This document shows positions 4,870-63,640 of a DNA stretch of 64,000 nt, one piece after another. The notes beneath the pieces are model-generated. The model did not search any database and was not told the origin of the DNA. It was given only the letters and a program-made list of their open reading frames with translations. Position numbers and translations under genes: made by a program. Origin of the DNA: Leuconostoc gasicomitatum LMG 18811 (lineage in GTDB: Bacteria > Bacillota > Bacilli > Lactobacillales > Lactobacillaceae); contig NC_014319.1 in NCBI RefSeq assembly GCF_000196855.1, forward strand, positions 1,054,001-1,118,000, read 5' to 3'. Position 1 is the stretch's first letter. Each line of letters starts with the position of its first letter.

Positions 4870-4895
4870 ATAGAAAAAAGGCGTAGTGTGTGAAG
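4870..4895. terminator. Left half of a terminator-like hairpin split by the IS
   Basis: AAAAAAGGCGTAGTGTGTGA just left of the IS pairs with TCATGTGACTACGTCTTTT just right of it (about 6337-6355). The stem GRCGTAGT/ACTACGTC, flanked by an A-run and a T-run, reads as one bidirectional intrinsic terminator interrupted near its loop. It would have served leftward transcription from the alpha/beta hydrolase gene. Confidence 0.6.
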
Positions 4896-4953
4896 TGAAC
4901 CCAATAACTTGGACAGAATAAAAAATCTGTTCAGAAAGTTATTGGGTTTTTCT

Positions 4954-5454
4954 ATGTCAAAATATTCATATGAATTTAAATTAATGGTCGTTAAGGAATG
5001 GTTATCTGGTCAAAATAGTTTGATTGAATTAGTCAAAAAATATGCCATCAATAATGATCACGCGATTCGCGAATGGCGTGATGAGTATCTCGTGACTGGT
5101 TCCATTGGTTTTAAAAACCAGAAAACCTATTCAGCAGATTTTAAAATGACCGTGTTGAACTATCTTGAAACACACTCACAATCAGAGGCGGCACGCTATT
5201 TTGCGGTCTTCCCTAGTACAACAATCGCTAATTGGTTGAGAACGTATCGAAAATTCGGGTACAATGGGTTAAAACCTAAACCGAAAGGCCGGCAACCAAC
5301 AATGGGACGCAAACGCATTCATCCACTCACACCCGAACAACAAGAACTCGCTGACTTAAAGCAAGAGAATTATCAACTCAAGATGAAAGTGGCGATATTA
5401 GAAAAATTAAAAGCCTTAGTGGATCAACGAACCGAGAAAAACAAACGGCAGTAA
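4954..5454 (+). CDS. IS150-group transposase OrfA
   Basis: 166 residues from ATG 4954. An upstream TTG at 4909 lies inside the inverted repeat and is unlikely. It has two helix-turn-helix units, around SYEFKLMVVKEWLSGQNSLIE and YSADFKMTVLNYLETHSQSE, then basic residues and a C-terminal coiled stretch (QQELADLKQENYQLKMKVAIL). It binds the IS ends and contributes the N-terminal part of the OrfAB transposase. The orfB frame is open across the end of this gene, so a -1 shift is expected near the A-rich GAAAAAC at 5436-5442. This slip site is weaker than the A-AAA-AAG of IS150, so its exact position is an inference. Confidence 0.9.
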   Translation: MSKYSYEFKLMVVKEWLSGQNSLIELVKKYAINNDHAIREWRDEYLVTGSIGFKNQKTYSADFKMTVLNYLETHSQSEAARYFAVFPSTTIANWLRTYRKFGYNGLKPKPKGRQPTMGRKRIHPLTPEQQELADLKQENYQLKMKVAILEKLKALVDQRTEKNKRQ

Positions 5455-5483
5455 CGTCACTAAGGCGGACTAAATATTTTAAA

Positions 5484-6302
5484 GTGGATGATTTATTAGC
5501 TCTAATTGGCTTGAAACGCAGTACCTATTATTATCTAGAAGCTCATCCGCTCAATACGGCATCAGACAACAAAATAGCAGACGTAATCCGTCAAATTAAG
5601 TCACCTCAATTCCAAACCGAATATGGGTATCGTCGCGTGACAACGTTGTTGCACGACCAAGGTTATTTGGTGAATCACAAGCGCGTGCTCCGCATTATGC
5701 GTCAAAACGCACTCCTCAGCACCACGTATAACACGCGTAAGCGTCGCTATAATTCATATCGCGGTACGGTTGGGCGGATTGCCGAACGCGTTATCAAACG
5801 CAATTTTCAAGCACAAGAACCCTATCAAAAGATCGTCACAGACGTCACTGAAATTCAGTTGAACGATCATAATAAAGCTTATTTGACGGCGTTTGTCGAT
5901 TTATATGCAGGCGAAGTCCTGTCGTATCATTTAGCCAAAACACCAACCATGACGCTTGTCATGCGACCATTAAAAGCATTGTCAAAGCATCGTGGAGCTA
6001 TTATTCATAGTGATCAGGGATTCCATTATCAGACACCGATGTTCATTAACACGTTGAAGGATTTTGGCATGACGCAAAGCATGAGCCGTAAATCAACACC
6101 AGTCGACAATGCACCGATTGAGAGCTTTTTCCATATTTTGAAAGCCAATATCGTGCATCATAAACAGTACGAATCATTTCATGATTTCAAAGTGGTCGTT
6201 GACGACTTTATCAATTATTACAACAATCACCGGATCAAACAAAAACTCAACGGTCTGTCGCCGGTTCAATATCGGCAACTTACCACTGAGTCTGTTAGTT
6301 AA
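5484..6302 (+). CDS. IS150-group transposase OrfB (DDE integrase domain)
   Basis: 272 residues from GTG 5484, although the frame is open well upstream and the working protein is probably the OrfAB fusion made by a -1 frameshift. An N-terminal HTH_21 segment (YGYRRVTTLLHDQGYLVNHK) precedes the RNase H-like core with the DDE triad: Asp in IVTDVTEIQ, Asp in IHSDQGFHYQ and Glu in NAPIESFFHILK. The C-terminal IXXYYNNHRIKQKLNGLSP motif is typical. It catalyses strand transfer of the IS. It appears intact and potentially active. Confidence 0.92.
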   Translation: MDDLLALIGLKRSTYYYLEAHPLNTASDNKIADVIRQIKSPQFQTEYGYRRVTTLLHDQGYLVNHKRVLRIMRQNALLSTTYNTRKRRYNSYRGTVGRIAERVIKRNFQAQEPYQKIVTDVTEIQLNDHNKAYLTAFVDLYAGEVLSYHLAKTPTMTLVMRPLKALSKHRGAIIHSDQGFHYQTPMFINTLKDFGMTQSMSRKSTPVDNAPIESFFHILKANIVHHKQYESFHDFKVVVDDFINYYNNHRIKQKLNGLSPVQYRQLTTESVS

Positions 6303-6334
6303 TTAATTCTATGTTGTCCAACTATTGGGGTTCA

Positions 6335-6584
6335 CATCATGTGACTACGTCTTTTAGAAAACCCGTTTCAATGATGTTAATTCATAATTACTGATCATCC
6401 TCTTGTCATACAACAATGTATTTTCTTTAAAATAACAGAGCGTCCATAAGATAATAAACGCAGATTCTTTAGGATTGTTTTAAACAATTACCATCAAAGT
6501 CTCTGCATCTTTTTGTGCAAAGTGTGCCATTTAATTTCGCAATCTGCACTATATTTAAGTCAAGAATAAGAAATTATCCAATTT
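6335..6584. other. Intergenic stretch with IS flank and repeat copy D
   Basis: This contains the right half of the interrupted hairpin (to about 6355) and one copy of the dispersed hairpin terminator (about 6460-6520). Beyond the repeat, GCAATCTGCA at 6539-6548 resembles the inverted-repeat arm found at 1652-1663. No gene is evident. Confidence 0.5.
6458..6518 (+). repeat. Dispersed hairpin terminator, copy D
   Basis: This copy reads on the plus strand: GCAGATTCTTTAGGATTG, a short A/T loop, CAATTACCATCAAAGTCTCTGC, then ATCTTTTTG. It matches the copies at 39668, 40990 and 10390 (on the opposite strand) in arm sequence, loop and the following TTTGC. It would stop rightward transcription leaving the IS. 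Confidence 0.65.
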
Positions 6585-18206: not shown

Positions 18207-18700
18207 TAGCGATAAATAAAATTATATCTCAAATAATACACAAAATCAAGTCACTCAGTTAATTATTTGAATCTGTTATGATTTGAACTATATAAATCCC
18301 ATTAATTTAGCAAATTGTTGCGCACTTAACTCAATCATTCACCATTGAGTTAAGTACCATCTATCTCCTATTTACTATGGCTTTTGCTGACCCAATGACA
18401 TGTCAATCCGTACCGAATCCCAATACTAATCTTATCAGATTTTTATCTAACCTAAAGCAGACCTTGCAACAGCATTGACACTAGAAAATTAGGCCACATT
18501 AATGAAATTCCGATTAATAAAATATCGATTACTCAGAAGATCGTGTTAAAAATCAGGCATTGCATTAATCACTGCTCAGCTTCTTTTTTGATTGTTTTTC
18601 TAGTCATCAGTATAGGTAAAATAAAGTATGTTAAAAAAATCTAATAGTTCAGCCAGATTTTTATTCTGTCCAAACTATTAGATTCTATTCATCACATTAA
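18207..18700. other. Intergenic stretch between pox and a small membrane gene
   Basis: About 490 bases holding the pox promoter, a 12-bp inverted repeat ACTTAACTCAAT/ATTGAGTTAAGT (18324-18335 and 18344-18355) with no T-run, and the terminator at 18638-18684. No coding frame of any quality is present. Confidence 0.5.
18638..18684 (-). terminator. Terminator built from an IS-end-like hairpin
   Basis: On the minus strand AATCTAATAGTT pairs perfectly with AACTATTAGATT, followed by TTTTT. The loop TTGGACAGAATAAAAATCTG is almost identical to the left end of the IS at 4909-4929, one A shorter. It terminates the small membrane gene at 18701. Confidence 0.8.
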
Positions 18701-61087: not shown

Positions 61088-62446
61088 ATGAAAGTCTCAA
61101 AATTTGGCGGTTCTTCCTTAGCCGACGGGCGTCAATTGCAACGTGTTTTTGATATCATTCAATCAGATAAGAATCGCAAAGTTATTGTTGTATCTGCGCC
61201 AGGAAAACGTTTTAAAGATGATACAAAAGTAACTGACTTGTTACTTTCGTATGCAAAAGCAACCGTCGAAGATACAGATGCAACAGAAATTATAGAAACA
61301 ATTAAAAATCGTTATCATGCTATTGGTGATTATTTCAAACTGCCAGCCTATGAACTAGCAGATATCGATGAACAGATTGATCATCTTTCAACAAAACATT
61401 ACCGTTCGTTTGACTATCTTTATGCTGCTTTCGCGGCACATGGTGAGTATTTAAATGCACAACTCGTCGCTAAAGTCTTTAGTCATCTCGGCATTCCTGC
61501 CCGTTTTATTGACCCACAAGAAATTGGGTTACAAGTAGATGATAATGCGCGTTCTGCAACATTCGATGTTAAATCTTATACATCAATTGCTAAACTCGAC
61601 TTAAATACAAGTGAGCGTCTCATTATACCTGGCTTTTTTGGTTATACAAAAAATGGTGATATGGCTACTTTTTCACGAGGCGGTTCCGACATCACCGGTG
61701 CCATTATGGCTCGCGGATTAAGTGCCGATTTGTATGAAAACTTTACAGATGTGAGCGCCATCTATGCTGTTAACCCAACAATTATCGATCAACCAGCTGC
61801 CATCGAGCAAATGACTTATGATGAAATGCGTGAACTATCTTATGCTGGTTTTGCTGTTTTCCATGACGAAGCTATTATTCCAGCCATTCAAGGTGGCATT
61901 CGAATCAATATCAAAAATACTAATGAACCAGATGCTCCCGGCACTTTTATTGTACCACCCACTGAAGTACAGCAAACACGGCCTGTAACAGGTATTGCAA
62001 ATTCAAATCGTTTTGCGGCCTTATACTTACACCGCTACCTTCTAAACAAAGAAGTAGGTTTTACTTTACGCATTTTAGAGATATTAAAGCGGCATAATAT
62101 TTCCTATGAACATATGCCTTCAGGAATTGATGATTTAACAATTATTTTTGATAAAACAAGTCTATCACAAGAGCAAGTTGACAACATGTTAGCAGACATA
62201 GCCTCTGATATTAAACCAGATACACTAAAATGGCTCCCTAGCTATGGCATTATCATGATTGTTGGCGAAGGCATGCGCAATCGTATTGGTGCGTTAACAG
62301 AAATTGTCACCCCTTTGAAAGAACACGGTATCAGTTTACAGATGGTCAATCAAGGTGCTAGTGAGATTTCAATTATGCTTGGCATTCAACCTGATTTAGC
62401 TGATCGTGCTGTAAAAGCCATTTATGACAACATCTTCAAAGCTTAA
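61088..62446 (+). CDS. Aspartokinase
   Basis: 452 residues. VSKFGGSSLADG (the KFGGTS motif), VVSAPGKR, FSRGGSDITGAIMARGL and YENFTDVSAIYAVNP form the kinase domain; two C-terminal ACT domains follow (SYEHMPSGIDDLTIIFDKTS; MIVGEGMRNRIGALTEIVTP). This is the long monofunctional form, probably lysine- or threonine-sensitive. It starts 1 base after the thrB stop. It commits aspartate to threonine, methionine and lysine synthesis. Confidence 0.94.
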   Translation: MKVSKFGGSSLADGRQLQRVFDIIQSDKNRKVIVVSAPGKRFKDDTKVTDLLLSYAKATVEDTDATEIIETIKNRYHAIGDYFKLPAYELADIDEQIDHLSTKHYRSFDYLYAAFAAHGEYLNAQLVAKVFSHLGIPARFIDPQEIGLQVDDNARSATFDVKSYTSIAKLDLNTSERLIIPGFFGYTKNGDMATFSRGGSDITGAIMARGLSADLYENFTDVSAIYAVNPTIIDQPAAIEQMTYDEMRELSYAGFAVFHDEAIIPAIQGGIRINIKNTNEPDAPGTFIVPPTEVQQTRPVTGIANSNRFAALYLHRYLLNKEVGFTLRILEILKRHNISYEHMPSGIDDLTIIFDKTSLSQEQVDNMLADIASDIKPDTLKWLPSYGIIMIVGEGMRNRIGALTEIVTPLKEHGISLQMVNQGASEISIMLGIQPDLADRAVKAIYDNIFKA

Positions 62447-62460
62447 AAAATGTATATTTA

Positions 62461-62559
62461 AAAAAGAAACCTTACTGAAGTGAACCTAATAACTTGGACA
62501 GAATAGAAAATCTGTTCAGAAAGTTATCAGGTTCACTTCATTTAGTTAGGTTTCTTTTT
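62461..62559 (+). terminator. Terminator of hom-thrB-lysC, interrupted by an IS-derived element
   Basis: The outer arms AAAAAGAAACCTTACT (62461-62476) and AGTTAGGTTTCTTTTT (62544-62559) form an intrinsic terminator with A and T runs. Between them lies a 57-bp IS-end-like palindrome. The whole region could form a long compound stem. Confidence 0.7.
62480..62536. mobile_element. Solo mini-element derived from the IS left end
   Basis: GTGAACCTAATAACTTGGAC to GTTATCAGGTTCAC: the first 41 bases match the left end of the IS at 4895-4938 at nearly every position. The right side then closes the palindrome. Extended arms GAAGTGAACC/GGTTCACTTC are perfect. There is no transposase sequence. It is either a relic or a non-autonomous (MITE-like) form. 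Confidence 0.75.
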
Positions 62560-62565
62560 CAGGTG

Positions 62566-62607
62566 GTCAGCAGTTAACAAACGATGCTCGTTTGTTAACA
62601 TGCTGAC
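62566..62607. repeat. Strong palindrome without T-run
   Basis: GTCAGCAGTTAACAAACG pairs with CGTTTGTTAACATGCTGAC over about 17 bp with one mismatch/bulge, and a 5-base loop. Neither strand has a T-run after it. It lies between the aspartokinase terminator and the end of ansA and could be a protein site or a 3' stabilising hairpin for ansA. Confidence 0.6.
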
Positions 62608-62671
62608 ATATCATTTTAGATAACTTTGTCTCGCATACTATGTCACATAAAATAAACATTTGTTGTTATTT

Positions 62672-63640
62672 TCAAAATTGATGCAAATAGTCATGCAAAT
62701 CATGATTATTAAGTTGATTATCTAGACCAATTAATAATTTTAAACGCGCTTTTTGACCATTAATACTAGTGGCAAAGATAACACCATCTCTTTCTAATTG
62801 TACACCGCCACCTAAATAATCATATACTGGCTCAGCAACGCCATTAAAACTTCTTGATACAATAACAACAGGAATATTTCGTGATAAAAGGTAGCGCACA
62901 CCAATTGCTGCTTCTTTAGATAAATTGCCAGCACCTAGTGCCTCAATAACAATACCATCAATATTTGCCGCTGCCAATAATTCTAATAATTGCCCATCCA
63001 TGCCCGCGTAAGCCTTCAAAACTGGAATGCTCTTCTGTACATGAGCCACTGATAATACCCGACGTTTTGGCAAATCATAGAAAAAGATAATTTGACGTTT
63101 TGTTAAGAGCCCCATTGTGCCACTGATTGGTGAACCAAACGTTGCAACATTGGTTGTATGCGTTTTTGTTACAAAACGTGCCGCATGTATTTCATCATTC
63201 ATAACCACTAAAACACCACGATTACGCGAATTTTCATTAGATGCAACACGTAAAGCAGAATGGTAATTATACAAACCATCAGATCCTAATTCATTTGAAG
63301 AGCGCATTGCCCCTGTCATAACAATTGGAAAATCTACGGATAACGTACTATCCAAAAAAAAGGACGTTTCTTCTAGTGTATCAGTTCCATGCGTAATAAC
63401 GACTCCATCGAACGCATTACCTGCTGTCAAAATACGACGTTGCAGCTGCAACATATGCTCTGGTCCAATGTGTTCACTTGGTAAATTAAAAATACTTTCA
63501 ACTGTTAAATCAACATTGGGCAGTGCCATTTTGACATCAATCAAGGGATTGTCTAATCCAGTTTCAACATCACCGTCTTGATCTTCATGCATTGAAATTG
63601 TGCCGCCCGTATGGAGCACCAAAATTTTTTTTATGGTCAT
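62672..63640 (-). CDS. ansA: L-asparaginase
   Basis: 322 residues, no signal peptide, so cytosolic type I. The catalytic Thr is in LHTGGTISM, with the second triad in VVITHGTDTLEE; SSNELGSDGLYN and the C-terminal half-domain follow. It hydrolyses asparagine to aspartate, which feeds the aspartokinase pathway encoded next door. Its start overlaps the recO end by 4 bases. Confidence 0.93.
   Translation of the reverse strand: MTIKKILVLHTGGTISMHEDQDGDVETGLDNPLIDVKMALPNVDLTVESIFNLPSEHIGPEHMLQLQRRILTAGNAFDGVVITHGTDTLEETSFFLDSTLSVDFPIVMTGAMRSSNELGSDGLYNYHSALRVASNENSRNRGVLVVMNDEIHAARFVTKTHTTNVATFGSPISGTMGLLTKRQIIFFYDLPKRRVLSVAHVQKSIPVLKAYAGMDGQLLELLAAANIDGIVIEALGAGNLSKEAAIGVRYLLSRNIPVVIVSRSFNGVAEPVYDYLGGGVQLERDGVIFATSINGQKARLKLLIGLDNQLNNHDLHDYLHQF

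Follow-up and report, generated by a model that had tools for sequence, protein, structure and literature searches.

A 65-bp palindrome, probably derived from an IS3-family element, in the loop of an aspartokinase terminator of Leuconostoc gasicomitatum

How did a long palindrome with the ends of an IS element come to lie inside the transcription terminator of the aspartate kinase gene of Leuconostoc gasicomitatum LMG 18811, and is it mobile? The locus belongs to a stretch of 64,000 nucleotides (hereafter the window; coordinates refer to it unless genome positions are stated). In the reading that we consider very probable, the palindrome is a 65-bp non-autonomous derivative of an IS3-family element and sits in the loop of the aspartokinase terminator, the parent IS prefers such loops, and the palindromic form arose by loss of the interior of the IS. 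The element is real, is common to both genomes of the species examined, and is part of a wider pattern.

The aspartate kinase gene occupies positions 61088-62446 of the forward strand (NF006540, 650.2 bits against a cut-off of 434), and the palindrome begins 30 bases past the final base of its stop codon. From 62461 to 62559 the forward strand reads AAAAAGAAACCTTAC (62461-62475, the left arm of the host terminator), then the 65-bp palindrome (62476-62540), then TTTAGTTAGGTTTCTTTTT (62541-62559, the right arm with its T-tract); both host arms were recognized from the inverted repeat and from an ortholog without the insertion in the closest species (genome G005). The palindrome runs from TGAAGTGAACC to GGTTCACTTCA, as read from the sequence and from comparison of its copies, and in full is TGAAGTGAACCTAATAACTTGGACAGAATAGAAAATCTGTTCAGAAAGTTATCAGGTTCACTTCA, near-perfect with an 8-base loop. 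A first-pass annotation had given it 57 bp and the ends GTGAACC and GGTTCAC. Comparison of copies moves the ends outward to TGAA and TTCA (or ATCA), so that the element measures 65 bp, 8 bp longer, and the related IS 1,449 bp; TG...CA is the form expected of IS3 ends. The same annotation was right that this copy contains no transposase and is framed by terminator arms, as the inverted repeats at 62461-62479 and 62541-62559 are 89% complementary and end in TTTTT, and the G005 ortholog is empty.

The RNA fold of 62440-62570 (131 bases) was predicted at -50 kcal/mol, compared with -21.3 +/- 3.6 for shuffled sequences (z -7.9), and the single-stranded DNA fold of 62461-62559 at -28.7 kcal/mol (z -8.9), with the whole region forming one hairpin. 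The stem is followed by a T-tract, as in an intrinsic terminator. The site was absent from the list of a simple terminator scan, which allowed loops of 3-8 bases, counted at most 20 pairs and required the T-run directly behind the stem. An Rfam search of 62300-62800 at E up to 1 returned nine matches, all to microRNA families and all below gathering scores, such as any long hairpin might give. Compared with another copy in the same genome (L002), both members of one stem pair have changed (C-G to T-A) and another pair is now a mismatch (A-C); these changes neither prove nor exclude selection for the hairpin, and the single compensatory change is the sole hint of domestication of the 65-bp element. 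Judged from the predicted fold, termination probably survives at the nested site, since the hairpin would zip down to the host arms and T-tract. The symmetric, bidirectional terminator could also serve the convergent asparaginase-like gene (62672-63640, reverse strand; TIGR00520, 214.3 bits, under the cut-off of 314.3). A second strong hairpin, GTCAGCAGTTAACAAACGA tgc TCGTTTGTTAACATGCTGAC, lies directly behind the terminator at 62566-62607 and has no T-tract (-27.5 kcal/mol over 62556-62612); among the 19 genomes of the genus, a 67-base query for it matched only in two genomes of this species.

The candidate parent of the palindrome is in the same window. The 23-base left arm starting at 62480 has one further match there, at 4895 with one mismatch (22/23 bases; shuffles expect none), which bears out the annotated match to the left end of an IS; the right arm was found in the window at its own site only. 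The match at 4895 belongs to a full-length IS3-family element of 1,449 bp on the forward strand (4891-6339), whose ends match those of the palindrome. The 4.9 kb mentioned in the first-pass annotation, if meant as a length, is instead its position in the window. Its longest open reading frames span 4909-5454, where the true start may be a later ATG, and 5484-6302. OrfA has an HTH_Tnp_1 domain and OrfB an rve integrase core (NF033516, 265.6 bits against a cut-off of 160; PF01527, PF00665 and PF13333 above their cut-offs). The ends read TGAAGTG...CACATCA, target duplications of TGTG and CAAT were seen at two copies, and one of these has an exact empty site; the element may belong to the IS150 subgroup. 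It too splits a terminator, and the window does hold a second case, as annotated: the left arm at 4874-4890 (+) ends in the duplication TGTG (4887-4890), and the repeated TGTG (6340-6343) followed by the right arm ACTACGTCTTTT occupies 6340-6355 (+). The left end of the IS itself contains a terminator-like hairpin (4898-4952, +), AACCCAATAACTT...AAGTTATTGGGTT followed by TTTC; the hairpin GTGAACCCAATAACTT...AAGTTATTGGGTTTTTC folds at -26.6 kcal/mol (z -6.8). On the reverse strand, a related IS is represented at 18654-18691 by a truncated and decayed left end that includes a short hairpin and a T-run.

The solo palindrome corresponds to this left-end hairpin with its final bases exchanged for those of the IS right end, ...GGTTCACTTCA, and the left hairpin and the right end have ATTGGG(G)TT in common. 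A route can be proposed. Comparison of sites shows that the 1.45-kb IS preferentially enters the loops of intrinsic-terminator hairpins, with duplication of 3-4 bp, and that most solos occupy the same kind of site; the transposase may recognise the dyad, either as a cruciform or as symmetric duplex. As the 3' arm of the left-end hairpin resembles the IS right end, a deletion at ATTGGG(G)TT removing all that lies between the two would leave a 65-bp palindrome. Lying in register with the host hairpin, it would form one longer fused hairpin with the host T-tract at its end.

The sequence is not unique to this site. The single-contig genome (1,954,080 bases) has three solos (genome positions 1116476, 180086 and 65709), four complete IS copies and several truncated ones. 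A 65-bp query matched in 12 of the 19 genomes of the genus, and nine solo sites were recognized in seven of them, from six species: L001, L002 and L003 in the LMG 18811 genome (G000), all three also in a second genome of the species (G004), and L023 (G016), L026 and L060 (G008), L029 (G009), L050 (G017) and L056 (G003). To be counted, a solo needed both termini, or else the full hairpin with a single terminus (as at L029); the nine are the strongest loci only, and further decayed solos may exist in the genus. In an even sample of 397 genomes of the family, taken from a larger group, 14 gave a match: 12 from the genus itself and two from another genus with matches of 25 bases. None was found in 50,697 phage records at E 1e-5, and the four matching plasmid records, all from Leuconostoc, aligned over the first 58 bases only. 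The palindrome at 62476-62540 is identical in sequence to its counterpart in G004 (L087) and 94% identical to the solo at genome position 180086. On the G004 contig concerned (C475; L087 and L088) the match to the aspartokinase gene is broken into two pieces that overlap, pointing to a frameshift or a fault in the assembly. At L056 and L050 the loop is the usual one and one or both arms are of right-end type (AATAGTTGGACAG), the pattern that an exchange or conversion of arms inside the palindrome would leave.

Eight solos retain both ends; six of these have terminator arms and four a 4-bp target duplication (ATTA, AAAA, ATTA and ATTA). Empty terminators were located for four solo sites, with loops slightly unlike the rebuilt targets. 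In G005, where the aspartokinase gene is 99% identical, GAAAAAGAAACCTTACTAGATACTCTAGTAAGGTTTCTTTTTCAGG stands where LMG 18811 has the element, and this empty terminator gives a clean terminator fold (-29.6 kcal/mol). The occupied site has no perfect duplication (TTAC/TTTA) and seven loop bases fewer than G005, so that the insertion is not cleanly readable and is either old or edited. L002 has ATTA on both sides, and its G005 counterpart is a terminator without the element and with a different loop; L023 is flanked by AAAA on both sides, its empty terminator in G003 having one base less; at L026, between two ATTA copies, the empty counterpart differs by one base and lies elsewhere in its own genome (G008), in a 98%-identical stretch. 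For a full IS copy of the LMG 18811 genome (L007), flanked by CAAT on both sides, G005 has the exact empty target AAAAAAACCGAGAATTTCAATTCTCGGTTTTT, with a single CAAT in the terminator loop.

Does the 65-bp form move as a mini-element, with full copies supplying the transposase, or did a full IS collapse in place and leave it as a scar? We consider the two about equally likely. Under the second, which has a little less than an even chance of being correct, the interior of a full IS would have been lost by template switching between the 3' arm of the left hairpin and the right end, and the remnant would never move; the deletion indeed joins two stretches sharing ATTGGG(G)TT, three solos beside four complete IS copies in one genome are no burst of mini-copies, and the duplications and empty sites are accounted for equally well. 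Against collapse, no full IS was found at the counterpart sites of the solos in relatives (62476-62540 in 19 genomes; L002, L023 and L026), and in the LMG 18811 genome all three solos end in CACTTCA, whereas four of five IS right ends read CACATCA. This second hint fades across the genus, where a hand count gave TTCA-type right ends at six of nine solos and seven of 13 IS copies. The other reading, to which we give the same chance just short of even, is that the IS transposase recognises the 65-bp form and moves it as a unit into terminator loops, like a MITE. The complete TG...CA terminal inverted repeats, the 4-bp duplications at four of eight sites and the unrelated locations in six species favour mobility; the low copy number speaks against it, as does a length of 65 bp, which is very short for a transposition substrate. 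The first-pass suggestion of a non-autonomous, terminator-targeting element stands as regards derivation from an IS, absence of a transposase, preference for the inside of terminators and empty counterpart terminators, and leaves mobility balanced against the scar.

By structure, the 65-bp form fits a MITE in the wide sense: it lacks a transposase, its terminal inverted repeats match those of a resident IS, and target duplications accompany four of the eight solos, the one at 62476-62540 being without. Likewise, MITEs such as MITEAba12 (PMC6382973; reviewed in PMC10969869) are described in the available excerpts as short, without open reading frames, with terminal inverted repeats of a resident IS and with duplications at some copies. 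MITEAba12 is longer (111-114 bp, against 65 bp) and, in the excerpts of PMC6382973, was seen to move, with no site preference beyond AT content. The excerpted texts of PMC6382973 and PMC10969869 contain no mention of a MITE between terminator arms. SPRITE, a rho-independent-terminator-like repeat of Streptococcus pneumoniae in the excerpts of PMC10969869, is alike by description as a small repeat of terminator character; unlike SPRITE as described there, the Leuconostoc element enters a pre-existing terminator.

Target preference was assessed at 61 sites with both ends: eight solos, 12 full Leuconostoc copies and 41 distant relatives (35 from a scan of named genomes and six from plasmids), the last including Anaerococcus, Paenibacillus, Latilactobacillus, Moraxella and Bacilli MAGs. 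Duplications of 3-4 bp were present at 41 of the 61 (2.82 expected). When the flanks were joined with one duplication removed, they folded at a mean of -14.27 kcal/mol, whereas joining left and right flanks of different sites gave a mean of -7.27, and none of 1000 such shuffles went below -8.47; at 23 of 61 sites the fold was under the 5% quantile of this mispaired set. In the joined 60 bases, 53 sites have a hairpin of 8 pairs or more, with a median distance of 1.0 nt between its centre and the junction. At 41 of 61 sites the centre was no more than 3 nt from the junction, a count that averaged 17.1 and never exceeded 24 in 60 shuffles of mispaired flanks; at random window positions such centring occurred at 449 of 3000 and any such hairpin at 1623 of 3000. 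An A-tract to the left together with a T-tract to the right was seen at 42 of 61 sites, against 2.7 expected from random positions at the same loci. A strict stem test of the first 53 sites was passed by 23 (mispaired mean 2.86, maximum 10.0 in 1000 shuffles): five of eight solos and 14 of 35 distant copies, each reached in 0 of 1000 shuffles, and four of ten full Leuconostoc copies, equalled in 9 of 1000. The span-pair means for the eight solos or the ten full copies alone were inside the shuffle range. An earlier centring measure, which put the junction in an apical loop at 44 of 61 sites (mispaired mean 22.0, maximum 30) and within 3 nt of the loop centre at 43 of these 44, was withdrawn as partly circular, since in loops whose median length is 5 the distance is bound to be small. 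The preference for terminator loops, with exceptions, is well supported, and the proposition that copies are unrelated to terminators fails: the preference holds for most solo and full copies and for the distant relatives.

The hairpin centre was more than 3 nt off at 12 sites (L003, L025, L044, L097, L101, L113, L118, L142, L225, L227, L228 and L230), and eight had no qualifying hairpin (L005, L050, L098, L106, L111, L125, L156 and L224). At L225, L228 and L230, which are inside strong hairpins, and at L224 (GCCGCC TGCG GGCGGC) it is the criterion that fails and not the idea; L003, L025, L044, L050, L101 and L106 look like real non-terminator sites. The exceptions include the solos L003 and L050 as well as the full copies L005, L025 and L044. 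The view of L005 as a plain insertion outside a terminator was rejected, because its left flank, taken together with the right flank of L213, resembles one terminator. These two copies (genome positions 1850976 and about 1872140, about 21 kb apart) have CTCCCA in common and look like a composite transposon or a product of IS-IS recombination; their counterparts in G004 are both on one contig, C887. In the Moraxella osloensis plasmid (L233), an IS3 element sits at the centre of a near-perfect inverted repeat of ~28 bp per arm without target duplication. Two Merdibacter IS copies, L119 and L122, have a common left flank and different right flanks, which suggests recombination between copies.

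The named-genome scan covered 58 of 79 loci, of which 35 were used, seven duplicated Leuconostoc sites and 16 lacked confident ends. Ten of 12 plasmid regions had a transposase and eight were used; at L226 and L234 the ends do not start with TG, and plasmid copies L231 and L232 have no right end. The solo L029, whose left end is lost, was excluded from all statistics, and the counts leave out IS copies interrupted by a contig end. In G017, two pairs of contig ends resemble terminator halves and, having been paired by that likeness, are no evidence. The E. coli relative L223 is doubtful. The end motifs of several distant loci (for example L098, L100, L151, L155, L156, L158 and L165) were set by eye after the flanks had been seen, which biases towards good ends. 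The 61 sites are not all independent, given the left flank common to L119 and L122 and several Anaerococcus and Paenibacillus copies from one genome.

An improbable alternative to targeting is that the IS inserts anywhere and that insertions in terminators survive as harmless. Survivors would be expected outside genes, and such places are richer in hairpins and A/T tracts (expectation 6.6 of 57 for ORF-free positions and 2.7 of 61 for positions of any kind). Controls from ORF-free positions of the same loci, which could be drawn for 57 sites, four of the 61 having too few such positions, were nevertheless exceeded: A- and T-tracts were present at 40 of 57 sites, and joined flanks ranked in the best 5% of their own controls at 30 of 57 (2.9 expected). 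Harmlessness also leaves unexplained why hairpins are centred on the junction. That the aspartokinase hairpin is an ordinary long native terminator resembling the IS ends by chance is scarcely credible: it does lie behind a gene and has the hairpin and T-tract, but the match to the IS left end, the further copies at unrelated sites and the empty G005 ortholog refute this.

The left-end hairpin of the IS was compared across copies. A hairpin with the inverted repeat as its 5' arm was present in all 12 full Leuconostoc copies, 11 of them with a T-tract. Among 53 full elements the left end had a hairpin in 36 and a T-tract as well in 29; the figures for the right end were 18 and 5. Thirty Leuconostoc left ends and solos, 25 of them distinct, were aligned; pairing holds in 94.1% of cells, and five of 20 pairs are changed on both sides, a number reached in 0 of 500 shuffles in a test that relatedness of the sequences inflates. 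Slid structures gave at most 50.9% pairing and at most three double-changed pairs. A single pair accounts for nine of the 13 double-change cells, and further pair types were unremarkable (68 of 500 shuffles). The simplest reading is that the left hairpin would act as a terminator that keeps outside transcripts from reading into the transposase gene, and would incidentally replace the split host terminator. It is not the targeting guide, since most elements from Bacilli, Erysipelotrichaceae and Clostridia MAGs lack it and many of these are nonetheless in terminator-like hairpins.

Palindromes are known targets of IS3-family elements. The nearest precedent, IS1397, inserts into the loop with a duplication of 3-4 bp. 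The excerpts of PMC1525189 report IS1397, ISKpn1 and ISPsy8 in REP palindromes, so that targeting of palindromes by IS3 elements is already known, and cite work crediting the transposase with target choice; these elements resemble the present one in family and in preferring an extragenic palindrome. As described there, the IS1397 type targets families of REP sequences, whereas the targets of the Leuconostoc IS are alike in structure (hairpin, A- and T-tracts) and not in sequence. Insertion into a palindrome was found at about two thirds of our sites, and by inspection the arms differ between sites instead of forming a repeated sequence family. Neither a left-end terminator hairpin nor a 65-bp solo form is described for the three elements in the excerpts of PMC1525189. 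An ISWco1-like IS3 element of Apilactobacillus (annotation of OX335326.1; transposase 43.7% identical) also has a left-end hairpin with a T-tract and sits inside a hairpin with A- and T-tracts, whose centre is 5.5 nt from the junction. IS1447 was set aside as a precedent, the stem-loop in the excerpts of PMC6211511 concerning slippage and not the target. No statement of terminator-loop targeting by an IS was found among the matches listed in the excerpted open-licence PMC literature; this is weak evidence for novelty of targeting terminators at large, and a mention in subscription papers or IS databases is quite possible.

What makes the locus interesting is not so much this single copy as the preference for terminator loops throughout a branch of IS3 elements, by which terminators would join the structural targets already known for IS elements. 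It offers a clean system for asking what a transposase reads in its target, the shape of the DNA (a cruciform or a single-stranded loop) or a symmetric sequence in double-stranded form, and the natural sets of empty, split and nested terminators could be used to measure the effect of insertion on read-through between genes. More tentatively, and with less than an even chance of being right, a broad IS3 branch may target extruded terminator hairpins, part of it carrying its own left-end terminator, with the 65-bp form in Leuconostoc fusing with the host hairpin. If this is true, terminators would be a safe harbour for IS elements and also a part of the genome that grows by nested mobile palindromes.
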